In this document: positions 2,867-9,869 of the stretch, piece by piece
Position numbering within the stretch: the first letter of the stretch is position 1
Layout of the letters: every line of letters begins with the position of its first letter
Program-made: the position numbers and the translations under genes
Notes under the pieces: generated by a model
What the model was told of the DNA's origin: nothing
The model's database searches: none
What the model saw: the letters and a program-made list of their open reading frames with translations, nothing else
Origin: Auricularia sp. M13
Taxonomy: Eukaryota; Basidiomycota; Agaricomycetes; Auriculariales; Auriculariaceae
Length of the DNA: 64,000 bases
Assembly (NCBI GenBank): GCA_037042915.1
Contig: CM073194.1
Coordinates: forward strand, 3,286,001-3,350,000
Direction of reading: 5' to 3'

Positions 2867-4439
2867 GCGTGCGCCGTGCATTACATTAGCCTGAGAACAC
2901 CATCGTGGCACGAAGCGGTTCCGCGAAACGGAGCGTCGGCACGAGAGAGAGGAAGGCGGGCGGAAGCTGCGGCAGGTTCTTCGGACGGCAGAAGCTTGAG
3001 GAATGCGTTGCGGGAGAATTCATCTGCTCAGGACGAAGGGTCACGACCGAGTTTGTCCGACCCTGATAATCTTGCGAAGCGTCCGCAGAACTCGAGCTGT
3101 ACGTCGAGCGCGAGCCCTGGACTGATCGTTAGGGCGTCGTTTGACCCGATCCCTGGTAATTCAGCTAAAACGACAAAGCGCGAGGATATGATACGCGCTG
3201 GGGACCTGACGTCAAATTCAGCCGCGCACTTGGGTGGTGTCTCTGGAAGTTGAAAGCGGCGACGGTACCTGATGGCCAGATATGAAGACGGAAGTGCGTC
3301 ACTCCAAGCAAGCAAGGGTGCCATGATAGGGTCGGTGGACCATATGCCGGTTGGTTGAATCGATGAGGACAGGCTAACAAGGACTGTTGGCAACCTTTAC
3401 CCTGCATCACTGAGTACCGAAGTTATAGAGCCGACCAAGCCTTCCGCGTTTTGGAAAGGAGGCGCTGTATAGTGTACCAGCTGAGGAACTGCCAGCATAG
3501 TTGCTAGGGGTGGTTGCGCGAGCTGTACTGACAAGATTCCTTTGATAGTTATCCACGCGTCGAATTATTTCACGTCTGTATCGACGAGGAAACATGCACG
3601 TTCTGACCGCAGAGCGAGTTAGATGGCTGATTGTCAAGCGCCAAAAATTCTAAAAGACAAGGAGGGTTCCGTTGTCGGAAATTTCCGCACCTCCTCGTTC
3701 CTCTTTCCAGTTGCCGTCTCTGGATTTCGTTCCCCCAATTCTTGCGCCACTTCCACGCGTTCAAAGGAGCCCCTGCTTCCGGTGATGCTAGCCGAGTCCT
3801 ATGACCCACCGTTTTCACGTCCAATCTCTGCGCCACCATCAGCTTCAAAATCGCTACGGCGTCACAGCTTGGTGGCGCGCGAATAACAGCAACGCGACGA
3901 ATTATGCCGGACGTTTATCGATGTCAGATGACATCGGTCTTGAATTTGCAGGCCATGCGCAAGGCTGGGCGTAATACATGTTGCTATCCTTCCGAGTCGG
4001 ATCTGTCTCTACTCGTTCCTGGATAACCAGTGTACCTCTTGACTGGATCTCAGGCCCCTCAAATTGAGCCTACGTTCTCTTCTTGCATTTTCGAAGCCTC
4101 AACGGCCACAACTACCTCCTAGCTGGCGTGTACCACCAAAGATATTCTCTCGGGCGTTCCAGTTACAGACAAAGCAAGTCTGGAAATTCGTGTTGTCCGA
4201 CCAGAATGTCAATGTTTAAACGACATAGAGGTAAATTCGATGTTTTATCATGGGTTTCAAGCATTCCCCAGCGCAACTGCTCGGCCCCAAAATGGCCGAG
4301 CGCCACCATTTCGAACACCGTGTTTTTCATCTGCTTCTCACGTTGCTTCATCCCCGTACCAAGTCCTGGCTTACTTGCATGAGCTGGCGCTGCGCGCGGG
4401 GTCACGCGACGCATGTCCAGCTATTCCGAACCAAAAATC
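2867..4439. other. Intergenic, no supported gene
   Basis: About 1.6 kb between the sedolisin promoter and the repeat element. Open frames of 60-120 codons exist on both strands, but none shows a domain, a signal peptide or convincing splice continuation. Nothing else was seen. Confidence 0.5.
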
Positions 4440-5140
4440 TGTTTCCTCACGTTCCATTTCCCATCCCACACGTTGACTTTCCCTTCCTGCACGATCTTTG
4501 TAATTACCCTTCCTACACGTCTCTACAAACCCTTCCCACACAATCTTTATGCCTTCCTGCACGTGCAGTATGCCTTCCTACACGTCCATTATTACCCTTC
4601 CCACACGCTCCAATAACCCTTCTAACACGCTCCAATAACCCTTCTAACACGTCCTTATAACCCTTCCTACACGCTGGTATTACCCTTCTTACACGTCCTT
4701 ATAACCCTTCCTGCACGTTCTAGTATCCCTTCCTGCACGCTCCCAGGGAGAACTCTAGTACACATCAAAGGAGTGCTCCAAAAATTCTGAAAACTGGATG
4801 ACAAATATTTAGAATTCAGATAAAAAATAATGGAATACTTATTAGGACCCTGGGTGCTGTGCATGATTTGATATCGAGTTTACTTTCCTTTTCAGGTGGG
4901 TGCGAGTGATGCTGAACTCTACAGCACCAGAAACAGACTGCCAAAATTTCCGGTTATATATTCATAAATCACCATAATACAAATAAAAAATACCTGGCCA
5001 GTTTGCGGAGTTCAATCGCATTTCCAAATCTGGTAACAAATGCTGTTCGAGCTCGCACTACAGCCTACATGGCACAACCATCCTTGAGTGTAAAAATACT
5101 GTTATATTGCAACTCATTCATGGGCATTGCCGGAAAGAGG
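4440..5140 (+). repeat. Left terminal inverted repeat
   Basis: This pairs with 8248-8948. The inner part, from about 4560 to 5136, is nearly identical to its partner. Two differences near 5092 and 5122 are transitions. The outermost ~100 nt keep the repeat-unit character and spacing but differ in sequence. Confidence 0.85.
4458..4745 (+). repeat. Subterminal tandem array, ~22-bp unit (left, 13 units)
   Basis: Thirteen copies of a core close to CCCTTCCTACACG, one every 20-24 nt. They are joined by AT-richer linkers such as TCCTTATAA and CTCCAATAA. The roughly two-helical-turn spacing would place every core on one face of the DNA. This is what an array of protein-binding sites at a transposon end would look like (inference). 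Confidence 0.8.
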
Positions 5141-6001
5141 GAGCACGGAAGAAGGGGATGTGAAAGGAATGTAGAATGATTTGAAATGACGGCATGACAA
5201 GTAAGGACAGAATATATATATATATGTTAGAGAACATACTGCTGACATAGGAAAAAAATAAACACTGCACAGACTCTTGAACTTTCTGAACATTTGGTCA
5301 AACCTCAGCTGCCCAATGGGGTAGTTGGACTGCCAGTACAGCTGGACTAATTACTCCACTTGGGGAGTATAAACTTTCTGAACTCATAATTGCTATGCTT
5401 TGAAATGACACGGGTACAGTCAATGGGGATAACCAGAAGCAAGCAAATTCAAAGGGAGTCAAGAGAGTTAAGGTGGGGATGTGAACGAAGAAATGATATC
5501 ACTCTTTGACACTTCATGGGTAAAGTCTATGACTGTGTGTAAACACAACAATGATTGATAACATCGGGGGATTCGGAGGAAATGGGAGAGGAGCAGTGTG
5601 TGATTGCAAAAGTTGAGACCATGCACCAAATGAGGGAGATTGTGTGTGACTCAAGGAGACGTCACGGTGTACTGCATACACCACCGACCAGGGGGCATAG
5701 CCAACCAGGAAGGCTACTCAGGAGGGGAAGGTTGTGCACATAACAGACCAGATCCAACCTAGGGTACACAGCTCGACGATAGCCGGTAACTATGGCGGGT
5801 CCAGAGGCAAAGGAAGCGCAGCCACAACACCCTACAGAACGGACCGAGGTGCGGAATAGAAGGGGGAAAGATACAGGAGGTGACCAAGGGCAAAGACACA
5901 AATAGAAGGACACTGAGGTGCCGTGGCAACGCGAGGGGACAGCAACAAAGCGAATGAAAGTGGAAACACCAAAGGTGGCGACAAAAGGAAGGTGAAGGGA
6001 A

Positions 6002-6772
6002 TGTTACGGCTCATTCGTTTTTCGCTCCTATTGCTGTTGGGCTTCTCAGACCTCACTCGCGCCAATGTCATTCGGACAGAGTCATCAGACCAAGACCCGC
6101 CGGCGCATGCGCGGCCCTGGCCTGCGGTCAGCGGTCCGGCTGGTTCCGGACCCCCTTTTTATACCTCGTGTTGTCCGCTCTTTGTACGCTAGATTCAAGC
6201 TGGTTTGCCCACTGCTGATACATCTCGTCCTTTTTCCCCCACACCACAGAGCGTCCGTTCGGCGAGTATCCTCGGTCACCGTAACAGGGAATTGTTGCGG
6301 TCTTCGTCGGGTCCCTCCTCCCCCGCTGTTTCATTTTGCCGTCCCGTGGCCCTCGCACCTCGTCCGGGCGCCCAAACTCCTTGTGCCCGGCCCCGCGGCC
6401 CTTTCGTCGGCGCGTCCCAGCGGTCTCTCCGCTCGGCGAGTACCTCGGTCTCTTCCCAGGAGAAGGGTAATACGACGGGATGTTTCTGGTTTGGTTGGGC
6501 TCTATTTATCCCGGGTTTCCTGTCTCGCCGACGACGCCCCGGCGGTCTCTTTCGGCCTGATCTGTGGTGCCCGCGTGGCAACCGGTCGGTGGCGCAATTG
6601 GTCCGCGGGCCCCCTCGGCCTTGCTTCCGTAGTATATATATCTGGGCCGTCGCCCCTCTTGTACCTTAGGTTTGGTCTGGTCTATCATACCGCTTATCCG
6701 CGCCTCCCTCTCCCTACTCATCCCTTCCCCTCGAGCGTCGTCTCGGAGAGTGATATAGCAGTCACCGTGACA
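6002..6772 (+). mobile_element. Candidate solo LTR nested in the TIR element
   Basis: A 771-bp block begins TGTTACGG and ends CCGTGACA, an 8-bp terminal inverted repeat with one mismatch and the TG...CA ends of an LTR. It is flanked on both sides by GGAA, a possible 4-bp target-site duplication. The block is GC- and pyrimidine-rich, unlike the purine-rich DNA around it. It contains a TATA-like run near 6635 (GTATATATATC). No gag-pol frame lies beside it, so it is best read as a solo LTR left by recombination. The orientation is inferred from the TATA run only. Confidence 0.6.
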
Positions 6773-7985
6773 GGAATCATACTAAACTAGAGTCCATGCC
6801 TATGGAAGTATTGGGCGGGTATCTGGGAAGGGCCGAGAAGGAGGAGTGCAGCAGCAGCTGTGCAGCGAATGGCCAAGACCAAGGAATGCACGGACCGGTC
6901 AAGATCCACCATTGGGGTACTCCAAGCAAAGGGTCTGACTGACTAGGAGTGCAGTGGGCACTGCGCAGACCAAGACCGAGGCTGGTGCCAAAGGCCAATA
7001 GCAGGCATGCACAGTCGACGGCCCGAACGGCGGCAGGAGCACGCTGATGGTGCTGGGATGCACTGGCGTGGCAATGAGAGAGGGGCGACGTCTGGTGAGC
7101 AGCTCCGAAGGGCATTGCTGGAGCATGTTGACCAAGGTCCAGGGTCTGAGCACGTAGCGGTGGCGGGAATTGAGGACAGCAAGCAAGGACTGAGCATCGA
7201 TAAAACAATGTGAAAGTGGCGTGGGCGAAGAACATTGCTGTGAACTGCAACATGACTCATTCAGTGATTTGTTATCAGCACCTGTGTGTTTGCAAACACG
7301 TCACAAACTGAAATTGTGGACCATATCATGGCCTGGGTCTAGGGAATCCAACCTATCAACCATCCCTGAGCATATGCACCCTGAGCAACTGGGGACATGC
7401 AGAACACGAAAGCTCATACTAGGGAAACCCAGTCATCGTGATTGCATCAAGCTATCCCACAGTCCATTGTGTCATCAAAACAGCAGATACAACCACAGCA
7501 CTCACATAGACAATTGGCTGGCTTTCTTGGAGCAATAAGCTGAGTCACTAGCTCTCAAGAACGATTCTCATTGGCTCATGAACACAAATTGCACAACCCT
7601 TGTGCAATCACAGCTTGTATGTGACTTCCGTGCACTCTTCCTATTGCATGGACATTTCTGGTACAGCTCAGAATGGGATCTTTGTTGGCTAGGCATTCTG
7701 CTGTATAATTGGTAGTTAGGTAGTTTTCCCCCAGCAAAGTGGCTCACAAGCATCCAGCTTACCAGTGGTACAGTTTCCGGAGCTCAGTTCTTGTCCTCGC
7801 ACTTGTCCTCCATTCTAGTTTGTACCAAACCAAAATCTCAGTTTCCCCCAGCCATCTCCGTTGGCTTCAAATCCAGTTCCTCCCGCTCCCCTGGTGCATG
7901 GTCCCGACTCTCATGGTTCCATACTATCCATTCCCTCTCCACGATGTCATTTCCTCGCAATCTGTGTTACATGTGTTTACCGTGT

Positions 7986-8385
7986 TCATGCAGTCATAGA
8001 CTTCCCCTGTGCAGGCACAAAGGTAAAGCATACACCTGCTTCACTTACCTCCTCTCCCACACAATCCATAGTTGCTAACACCTCAGATACGAACTTGGGT
8101 TCTGTCTTGTCTCCATAACTCACTTTCAGGGTTTTGATCACACACTCAAAGCCCCTTTCCCTCAACATCTCCACCTCGCTTCTCTCATGTATTGGGTATA
8201 CTCAACCCACCTACCGTTTTGTCTGCAGCTCCTATGTAGTCCTGCTTACTCTCTCTGGCAATGCTCATGAATGAGTTGCAATATAACAGTATTTTTGCAC
8301 TCAAGGATGGTTGTGCCATGTAGGCTGTAGTGCGAGCTCGAACAGCATTTGTTACCAGATTTGGAAATGCGATTGAACTCCGCAA
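7986..8385 (-). other. Possible coding remnant inside the TIR element
   Basis: Two consecutive minus-strand open frames (8385-8185, then 8174-7986) have protein-like composition, for example RERGFECVIKTLKV. Both are short, and the link between them is not a clear intron. No domain was recognised. The first frame overlaps the inner edge of the right TIR, and a diverged version of its beginning lies at the left inner edge near 5030-5160. Confidence 0.25.
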
Positions 8386-8948
8386 ACTGGCCAGGTATTT
8401 TTTATTTGTATTATGGTGATTTATGAATATATAACCGGAAATTTTGGCAGTCTGTTTCTGGTGCTGTAGAGTTCAGCATCACTCGCACCCACCTGAAAAG
8501 GAAAGTAAACTCGATATCAAATCATGCACAGCACCCAGGGTCCTAATAAGTATTCCATTATTTTTTATCTGAATTCTAAATATTTGTCATCCAGTTTTCA
8601 GAATTTTTGGAGCACTCCTTTGATGTGTACTAGAGTTCTCCCTGGGAGCGTGCAGGAAGGGATACTAGAACGTGCAGGAAGGGTTATAAGGACGTGTAAG
8701 AAGGGTAATACCAGCGTGTAGGAAGGGTTATAAGGACGTGTTAGAAGGGTTATTGGAGCGTGTTAGAAGGGTTATTGGAGCGTGTGGGAAGGGTAATAAT
8801 GGACGTGTAGGAAGGCATACTGCACGTGCAGGAAGGCATAAAGATCGTGCAGGAAGGGATAAAGATCGTGCAGGAAGGGTGACTGGAGACGTGTGAGATG
8901 GGTAATTGGCCACCGTGTGGGAAGGGAAGATGAACGTGCACAAACCTA
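8248..8948 (-). repeat. Right terminal inverted repeat
   Basis: Reverse complement of 4440-5140. It contains the mirror array (8644-8935), again with about 13 CGTGTAGGAAGGG-type cores at 20-24-nt spacing. The two arrays match most closely toward the inside and differ in the last four or five units. Confidence 0.85.
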
Positions 8949-9869
8949 TCTTGCATTCCGAACGGCTGTTGTTGCCCGCGTGCGATTTGTCGCGAGACGG
9001 CCGACATTGGCGGCACCCTGAGGCTTGATACGCGTGTCTCGCCTTTGCATCACGCTATGGCTGTGGTAGCGACTTGTTCTCAGTGTCATTCGAGGGGCTG
9101 GATCTGTCTGCCTTCGGCGATCTGACCTGATACAGACCAAATGTTATTTTTCTTGCGAGACGGCTACCATTGACCAGGTCCCGGTGCGACCGTCGGCGAT
9201 TCGCAACATCTTGACCCTCTGGACCTGTCTGTGTCGCTGGGCGCTGAACCTCCTGGCTTCTTGTGCCATTTCATAGGGACTAACTGCGACGATGATCACA
9301 CTGCGTGAGTCTGACCGGGCTGGCGTAAACATCTAAAGCATTGTTGGTGCGGTCTCATTTTACTGCAGGAACATGGTTTTCACTTATAGTATATTTCGCA
9401 GACCCGGCGAAACCATTCCCGGTGAAATCTGCCAATTTGTTTCCTTGTTTGTCGCCGTGTGCCCGCTGAACATTTCCCAACAGACTCCGTGATGGTTCCT
9501 GGAAATATTCGCCAGGCACACTGCTTTCCGGGGCCGCTATATGATTTTTGGTCGTTTCGCCAGGCGTGCAGGCGTGCACAAGCAGGCTCGAAGCTATTCC
9601 GACAAACATCCCTGCATAGGGCGTGCAAGCGGTCAATGATAGGTCGGGCGATCATTAATATGGGAAGCGGTGCGCAGGCGGTGCACATCAGGCATCCCAT
9701 TCGGATCCTGTAGGTAACTGTAAGGGGAGTCGGAGTTTGCGCCTGCTAGCTTTTGGCTCGCCTTGCTTCGCCAGCTGTCCGCCCAGCAAAGGACGCCGCG
9801 CCCGCCGCCGCCCGTCGGCCCTCACACTCGTTGCCCAATACGCTCATTTGATAAATTGGCTGAAAGGAC
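8949..9869. other. Intergenic, no supported gene
   Basis: About 0.9 kb between the TIR element and the DUF7729 gene. Open frames at 9355-9700 on both strands carry no recognisable domain. The last ~150 nt presumably hold the promoter of the next gene. Confidence 0.5.

Follow-up and report, generated by a model that had tools for sequence, protein, structure and literature searches.

An inverted-repeat element in the window

The window, a stretch of 64,000 nucleotides (nt) from Auricularia sp. M13 (assembly GCA_037042915.1, contig CM073194.1; C2:3286001-3350000 in the numbering used here), contains a 4523-bp element whose two long inverted arms each carry a tandem array of short units. We interpret it as a non-autonomous DNA transposon that belongs to a Mutator-like (MULE) family and has composite ends of the Foldback type. 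Its movement probably depends in trans on a transposase encoded by 8.1-kb copies elsewhere in the genome, and we put the probability of the whole reading at roughly 85%. A sequence-only reading of the window had recognized the element but placed it at 4440-8948; the tips and the 9-bp duplications set its true ends at 4432 and 8954. The features, in window coordinates, are as follows.

4423..4431, unstranded: left 9-bp target-site duplication, ATTCCGAAC
4432..8954, unstranded: whole non-autonomous element, 4523 bp, defined by comparison of tips and flanks in 12 copies
4432..4501, plus strand: A-end block, outer 70 nt, comprising the tip CAAAAATCTGTTTCCTCACG and units 1-2, with fixed differences from B
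4461..4739, plus strand: A-arm array, 13 units of CCTTCYNRCACG
4543..5090, plus strand: inner A arm, homogenised zone, the exact complement of 8298-8845; the arm continues to ~5145
5146..8242, unstranded: interior without transposase, partly common to other non-autonomous copies
6002..6286, unstranded: nested repeat reading as a solo long terminal repeat (LTR; TGTTACGG...CCGTAACA), GGGAA on both sides; ends and duplication read by eye
6293..6772, unstranded: nested repeat reading as a second solo LTR (TGTTGCGG...CCGTGACA), GGAAT on both sides; ends and duplication read by eye
8298..8845, minus strand: inner B arm, the exact complement of 4543-5090; the arm starts at ~8243
8649..8925, minus strand: B-arm array, 13 units
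8885..8954, minus strand: B-end block, outer 70 nt, comprising the tip GCAAGATAGGTTTGTGCACG and units 1-2
8955..8963, unstranded: right 9-bp target-site duplication, ATTCCGAAC

The inverted arms (4530-5145 and 8243-8858) are 616 nt long and 99% complementary. The proposed mirror, in which position x pairs with 13388-x, held for the inner arm, where 607 of 616 positions match, and broke down over 4432-4530, where an offset of 13386 fits better, yet only 54 of 99 positions match. The arms are indeed identical over 4667-4864/8524-8721, as had been pointed out, and the exact run is longer, extending for 548 nt (4543-5090/8298-8845). Arm comparison and unit counts bore out the description of ~700-bp inverted repeats with 13 + 13 units. 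The statement that no transposase is encoded also stood: a genome search with the family transposase returned four loci, none in the window. The longest reading frame in the element (241 amino acids, 6065-6790, bacterial code) overlaps dispersed repeats. As to a captured fragment of a host gene, the mark of a Pack-MULE, all matches to the interior were to family copies and dispersed repeats, in a comparison that scored 40 of 372 candidates. The two solo-LTR-like repeats adjoin each other inside the element, each with its own 5-bp duplication; segment 6002-6286 recurs at other places in two C10 copies, and 6293-6772 has at least 33 near-full-length matches elsewhere in the genome.

A mobile family with intact target duplications

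In the 52.1-Mb genome (14 contigs) we found 12 full copies of the family. The A tip CAAAAATCTGTTTCCTCACG and the B tip GCAAGATAGGTTTGTGCACG each have 12 exact matches, together with four further matches apiece at 2-3 mismatches; these include a degenerate A end on C8. A control search with the backward sequences gave no match for A and two for B. Every full copy pairs an A end with a B end. Further copies with clean duplications, which the sequence-only reading had named as the evidence to look for, are thus present throughout the family: all 12 are flanked by perfect 9-bp target duplications, which differ between the 12 insertion sites. The MULE superfamily is marked by target-site duplications of 9 bp (8-11), as seen in all 12 copies and in a relative on C4 described below.

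Joined flanks of all 12 copies were queried against the genome for empty sites, and paralogous insert-free sites were found for two. The site corresponding to the copy at C1:9413688 lies at C1:9327006-9327210 (92% identity) and holds the target once, with two mismatches to the 9 bp; that for the copy at C4:4430102 lies at C4:4420533-4420746 (80%) and holds the target once and exactly, with small gaps adjoining. For the other 10 copies, no genome match spanned the joined-flank junction. The family has transposed with a 9-bp staggered duplication. Six of the 12 are found in the last 136 kb of their contigs, at the high-coordinate end (C1, C3, C4, C7, and C11); none is near a low end.

Candidate helper elements

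An autonomous partner had been predicted, and long copies with identical tips do carry a MULE-like transposase, providing candidate helpers in the same genome. There are three such 8.1-kb copies (C3:1990517, C3:4239774, and C11:3163551), each with its own duplication and with tips identical to those of the window element. They show zero substitutions over 8136 aligned columns and 8 to 12 gap columns in each pairwise comparison, and roughly half or more of the gaps fall in single-base runs. Single-base gaps disrupt the frame at different places in the three copies; these gap differences may be assembly error.

The 8.1-kb copies encode a MULE-like domain, a SWIM finger, and then a downstream Ulp1-type protease domain, with all exons on one strand. 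The SWIM finger scores 22.4 bits on its own exon (cut-off, 19.6), and the Ulp1-type domain, which the window copy lacks, scores 49.9 bits (cut-off, 20.7), with a SENP1 match at an E value of 2.3e-10. Linker pieces of the long protein had no Pfam match, and transposase and protease may be parts of one protein or two separate ones. Residues that we take, by eye, to be the D, D, and E motifs of the transposase are also present.

The transposase query matched four loci, namely the three 8.1-kb copies and C4:4332813-4334733; it found nothing in two larger copies, one of 12 kb (C10:3209572-3221530) and one of 31.6 kb (C2:2011024-2042608). The C4 relative is 11,184 bp long, and its transposase pieces share 49 to 69% identity with those of the family. 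It has a duplication (GAATGCGAG), tips GCAAGATCGG and GCAAAAATGG, and inverted arms of 931 nt that are 97.6% alike and start 56 and 79 nt from the tips. It shares the plan of end-specific outer blocks and alike inner arms. A MULE domain is found at six other places in the genome; the 10 kb at one of these, C1:8704500-8714499 (match at C1:8709270), contain neither a long inverted repeat nor a tandem array.

Two zones in the arms

The A and B ends of every copy differ over the outer ~70 nt, whereas its inner arms are kept alike. Among the 24 arms compared, 31 alignment columns had no state shared between A and B, and all 31 fell within columns 1 to 70, where 4 of the 12 B arms also have a gap of about one unit. 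The likeness of A and B is 65% over columns 1 to 115 and about equal within a copy (64.9%) and between copies (64.3%). Within the nine-copy group, over columns 116 to 700, an arm is 99.6% like the other arm of its copy, versus 97.2% for random pairings (standard deviation, 0.37; none of 20,000 as high), and the best partner of an arm, from either side, was its own counterpart in eight of nine copies. Extension to column 784, a ragged inner edge, gave 98.0 versus 96.4%, with the own arm best in 5/9 and 3/9.

Of the variants that occur in exactly two of the 18 arms, 29 of 29 lie in both arms of a single copy (544 of 585 columns used), versus 2 of 6 over the outer 115 columns. The sequence-only reading had offered youth or conversion as reasons for the likeness of the arms; these variants and the excess of 99.6 over 97.2% strongly indicate conversion or an equivalent process. 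Between the window group and the 8.1-kb group, columns 66 to 115 are 90.7% (A) and 70.0% (B) alike, columns 116 to 300 are 97.2% (A) and 91.8% (B) alike, and columns 421 to 720 are 53 to 66% alike.

The main rival explanation for this likeness is copying at birth, in which an aborted repair copied one arm onto the other when a copy arose and the arms have only decayed since. Interior content varies between the non-autonomous copies, as if they had been separately made, and three copies have inner arms that are 100% alike; both are in keeping with such an origin. The copy at C1:8.17M, however, is only partly alike, and the zone boundary is the same in all copies, with the C4 arms starting at 56 and 79 nt; both observations suit repeated events better, and neither is decisive. 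We consider a single birth event somewhat unlikely, and we favor recurrent conversion or gap repair.

Tandem units in a fixed register

The window holds 31 unit matches (≤1 mismatch), versus a mean of 4.94 in 100 shuffles (standard deviation, 2.26; largest, 12); at the same threshold, the arrays account for 13 on the plus strand and 13 on the minus strand. The expected ~22-nt step was recovered, and the spacing measured in the window copy is 21 to 26 nt, mostly 22, where 20 to 24 had been given. Arms of the 12 copies carry 11 to 13 units, as expected of terminal inverted repeats (TIRs) of the Foldback type, which consist of tandem units. In all 26 arms, those of C4 among them, unit 1 starts at nt 30, and array lengths of same-type arms differ by 21, 22, or 45 nt, that is, by whole units; two arms are cut by nested inserts. 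We count the start at nt 30 and the whole-unit differences in array length in favor of the transposon reading.

A B-arm pattern starting at nt 77 (77, 98, 119, 140, 163, 185, and so on) recurs in the B-type arm of the C4 relative, in which the unit search pattern finds no unit between nt 30 and 77 or 99. This search pattern permitted both core forms: CAC occupies positions 9 to 11 in 298 of 298 units of the 12 copies, and GAAAC occupies positions 7 to 11 in 28 of 28 units of C4. The proposal that a transposase binds along one DNA face was not supported, since at 10.5 bp per turn a 22-nt step rotates by ~34 degrees per unit and the B units exceed a full circle. Four B units (nt 77 to 140) do lie on one face at 10.5 bp per turn, and the inner seven do so only near 11 bp per turn. 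We infer that the arrays may be binding sites of an element protein, and we read the outer blocks as putative distinct left and right ends.

The main rival explanation for the arrays is a VANC-like role, in which they serve mainly as docking sites for an element-encoded anti-silencing protein, perhaps via the Ulp1-bearing part, and not as transposase sites. The short tandem-repeat motifs to which VANC proteins bind change in concert among related elements (PMC5735166), and Ulp1 is present in some VANC genes (PMC13317346); here, too, two related elements have unit cores that differ as a block, and a Ulp1 domain is encoded. Our units, however, are confined to terminal arrays, with a single further 1-mismatch match at each 8.1-kb locus, whereas VANC21 sites also lie in introns and intergenic parts (PMC5735166), and the start at nt 30 in every arm together with the whole-unit length changes suggests a link between array and tip. 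We regard an anti-silencing role as improbable and prefer transposase binding. A local inverted duplication of host DNA, the reading that an inverted pair unique in the genome would have favored, is refuted by the 12 copies at different sites, their different 9-bp duplications, and the two empty sites, and we found no point in its support. KDZ-, hAT-, and Starship-like origins were set aside on the 9-bp duplications and the MULE and SWIM matches rather than on profiles of their own.

Weighing the transposon reading

We conclude that the window element is a non-autonomous Mutator/Foldback-type transposon because 12 copies share its tips and have 9-bp duplications, two empty sites exist, and some copies bear a transposase. 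Several observations weigh against parts of this reading. The MULE-like domain of the 8.1-kb copies (PF10551) scores 20.5 bits (E value, 6.8e-4), below the Pfam cut-off of 27.6, and the MULE family itself, used as a genome query, found the six other places mentioned above and none of the 8.1-kb copies. In a longer query the SWIM finger falls to 19.3 bits, below its cut-off of 19.6, and the MULE, SWIM, and Ulp1 matches of the C4 relative are all below their cut-offs. The C1:8.17M copy is not homogenised, its own arms being 97.6% alike and closer to those of other copies, and the A-type arm of C4 is shifted by one unit and lacks the exact register of the A arms. Finally, the arms of the window copy differ by ~16 to 19% from those of the 8.1-kb copies, and for this reason we only infer that the latter mobilize it in trans.

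We postulate that the transposase of the 8.1-kb copies would mobilize the window element in trans, this zinc-finger transposase reading the ~22-bp array as repeated predicted binding sites in a fixed register from the tip. The outer blocks could let the transposase tell left from right, and conversion or gap repair within the element may keep the inner arms homogeneous. Were conversion to extend as far as the tips, it would produce immobile A/A or B/B copies; there are none among the 12 full copies. Taken as a whole, we advance only tentatively the model of a eukaryotic cut-and-paste transposon with non-interchangeable ends, in which the long array with its fixed register is where the transposase assembles, perhaps together with the Ulp1 part, polarity comes from the outer blocks, and recurrent conversion clears inner-arm differences. 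If it is correct, the copy set alone maps the part of the arm that must remain end-specific. The family is compact, with 12 full copies, all duplications intact, and candidate helpers in the same genome, and it would offer a natural map of end function divided into what is fixed between ends, what is homogenised, and what varies by whole units only. Since a second family in the genome combines a different unit core with a diverged transposase, it can be tested directly which protein goes with which site.

Comparison with known systems

The closest known systems are Tm1 and Muta1. Tm1, a Mutator/Foldback family of root-knot nematodes, has a MULE transposase, 9-bp duplications, and composite TIRs with tandem units and unlike terminal motifs (A1 and A2) at its two ends (PMC3169594). 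The same combination of unlike terminal motifs, tandem units, and 9-bp duplication is found here, with a unit consensus that differs by eye. Tm1 differs in its 7-bp end-specific motif, 13- to 15-bp units, TIR identity within an element averaging 93.15%, and mostly small copies, whereas our family has an end-specific block of ~70 nt, ~22-nt units, ~700-nt arms, inner arms mostly >99% alike, and an encoded Ulp1 domain. One A2/A2 copy of Tm1 without a duplication is also described there. Muta1 and its relatives, MULEs of Aedes aegypti, share 8- to 9-bp duplications, long TIRs with subterminal tandem repeats, and varied non-autonomous interiors; Muta1 itself has 145-bp TIRs with nine copies of a 12-bp repeat, and the accessible part of its report notes no end-specific block (PMC5225508).

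Other known systems resemble the family in part. Galileo, of the Drosophila P superfamily, has long internally repetitive TIRs that are 98 to 100% alike within a copy, for which recombination and conversion have been proposed, but its transposase is of the P-element type (PMC3573991). KI-MULEs and other Ulp1-bearing plant MULEs combine a MULE transposase with Ulp1 in one element, as the 8.1-kb copies do and the window copy does not; Arabidopsis KI-MULEs are described without TIRs and with Ulp1 in reverse orientation to mudrA, whereas here the TIRs are long and the domains are on the same strand (PMC2528002, PMC13317346). Ulp1 with a MULE transposase has thus been published for plants; we found no fungal case by title or abstract start, although one may still be in print. 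VANDAL/VANC of Arabidopsis resembles our family as a MULE with short-motif arrays that change together between relatives, but its motifs are also intronic and intergenic, whereas ours form terminal arrays in a fixed register (PMC5735166). In the rows of a MULE survey that name fungi, TIRs are 22 to 220 bp (PMC6446971), and tandem-TIR MULEs have been described (PMC3310237). MULEs, Foldback-type TIRs, unlike tips, and Ulp1 are each already known; their combination with ~700-bp two-zone arms did not turn up in a literature search in which most papers were judged without full text.

Insertions nested within family copies

The 31.6-kb family copy (C2:2011024-2042608) contains a nested ~26-kb Helitron-like element with matches to Helitron_like_N (99.6 bits), PIF1 (73.3 bits), and DUF6570 and numerous other reading frames, some of which look alike by eye; a second insert, of ~0.9 kb, has inverted ends of 29 nt. 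We abandoned the view that this locus is a giant copy that carries cargo, as its size comes from nested inserts, mainly the Helitron-like element. An insert of ~6 kb in C10:3209572-3221530 and one of 419 bp in C7:3735761-3741396 both have CAAGGGG-type ends and 8-bp duplications read by eye (GGGATACT and TCTAGTAT), and both lie within the unit array, near the same unit.

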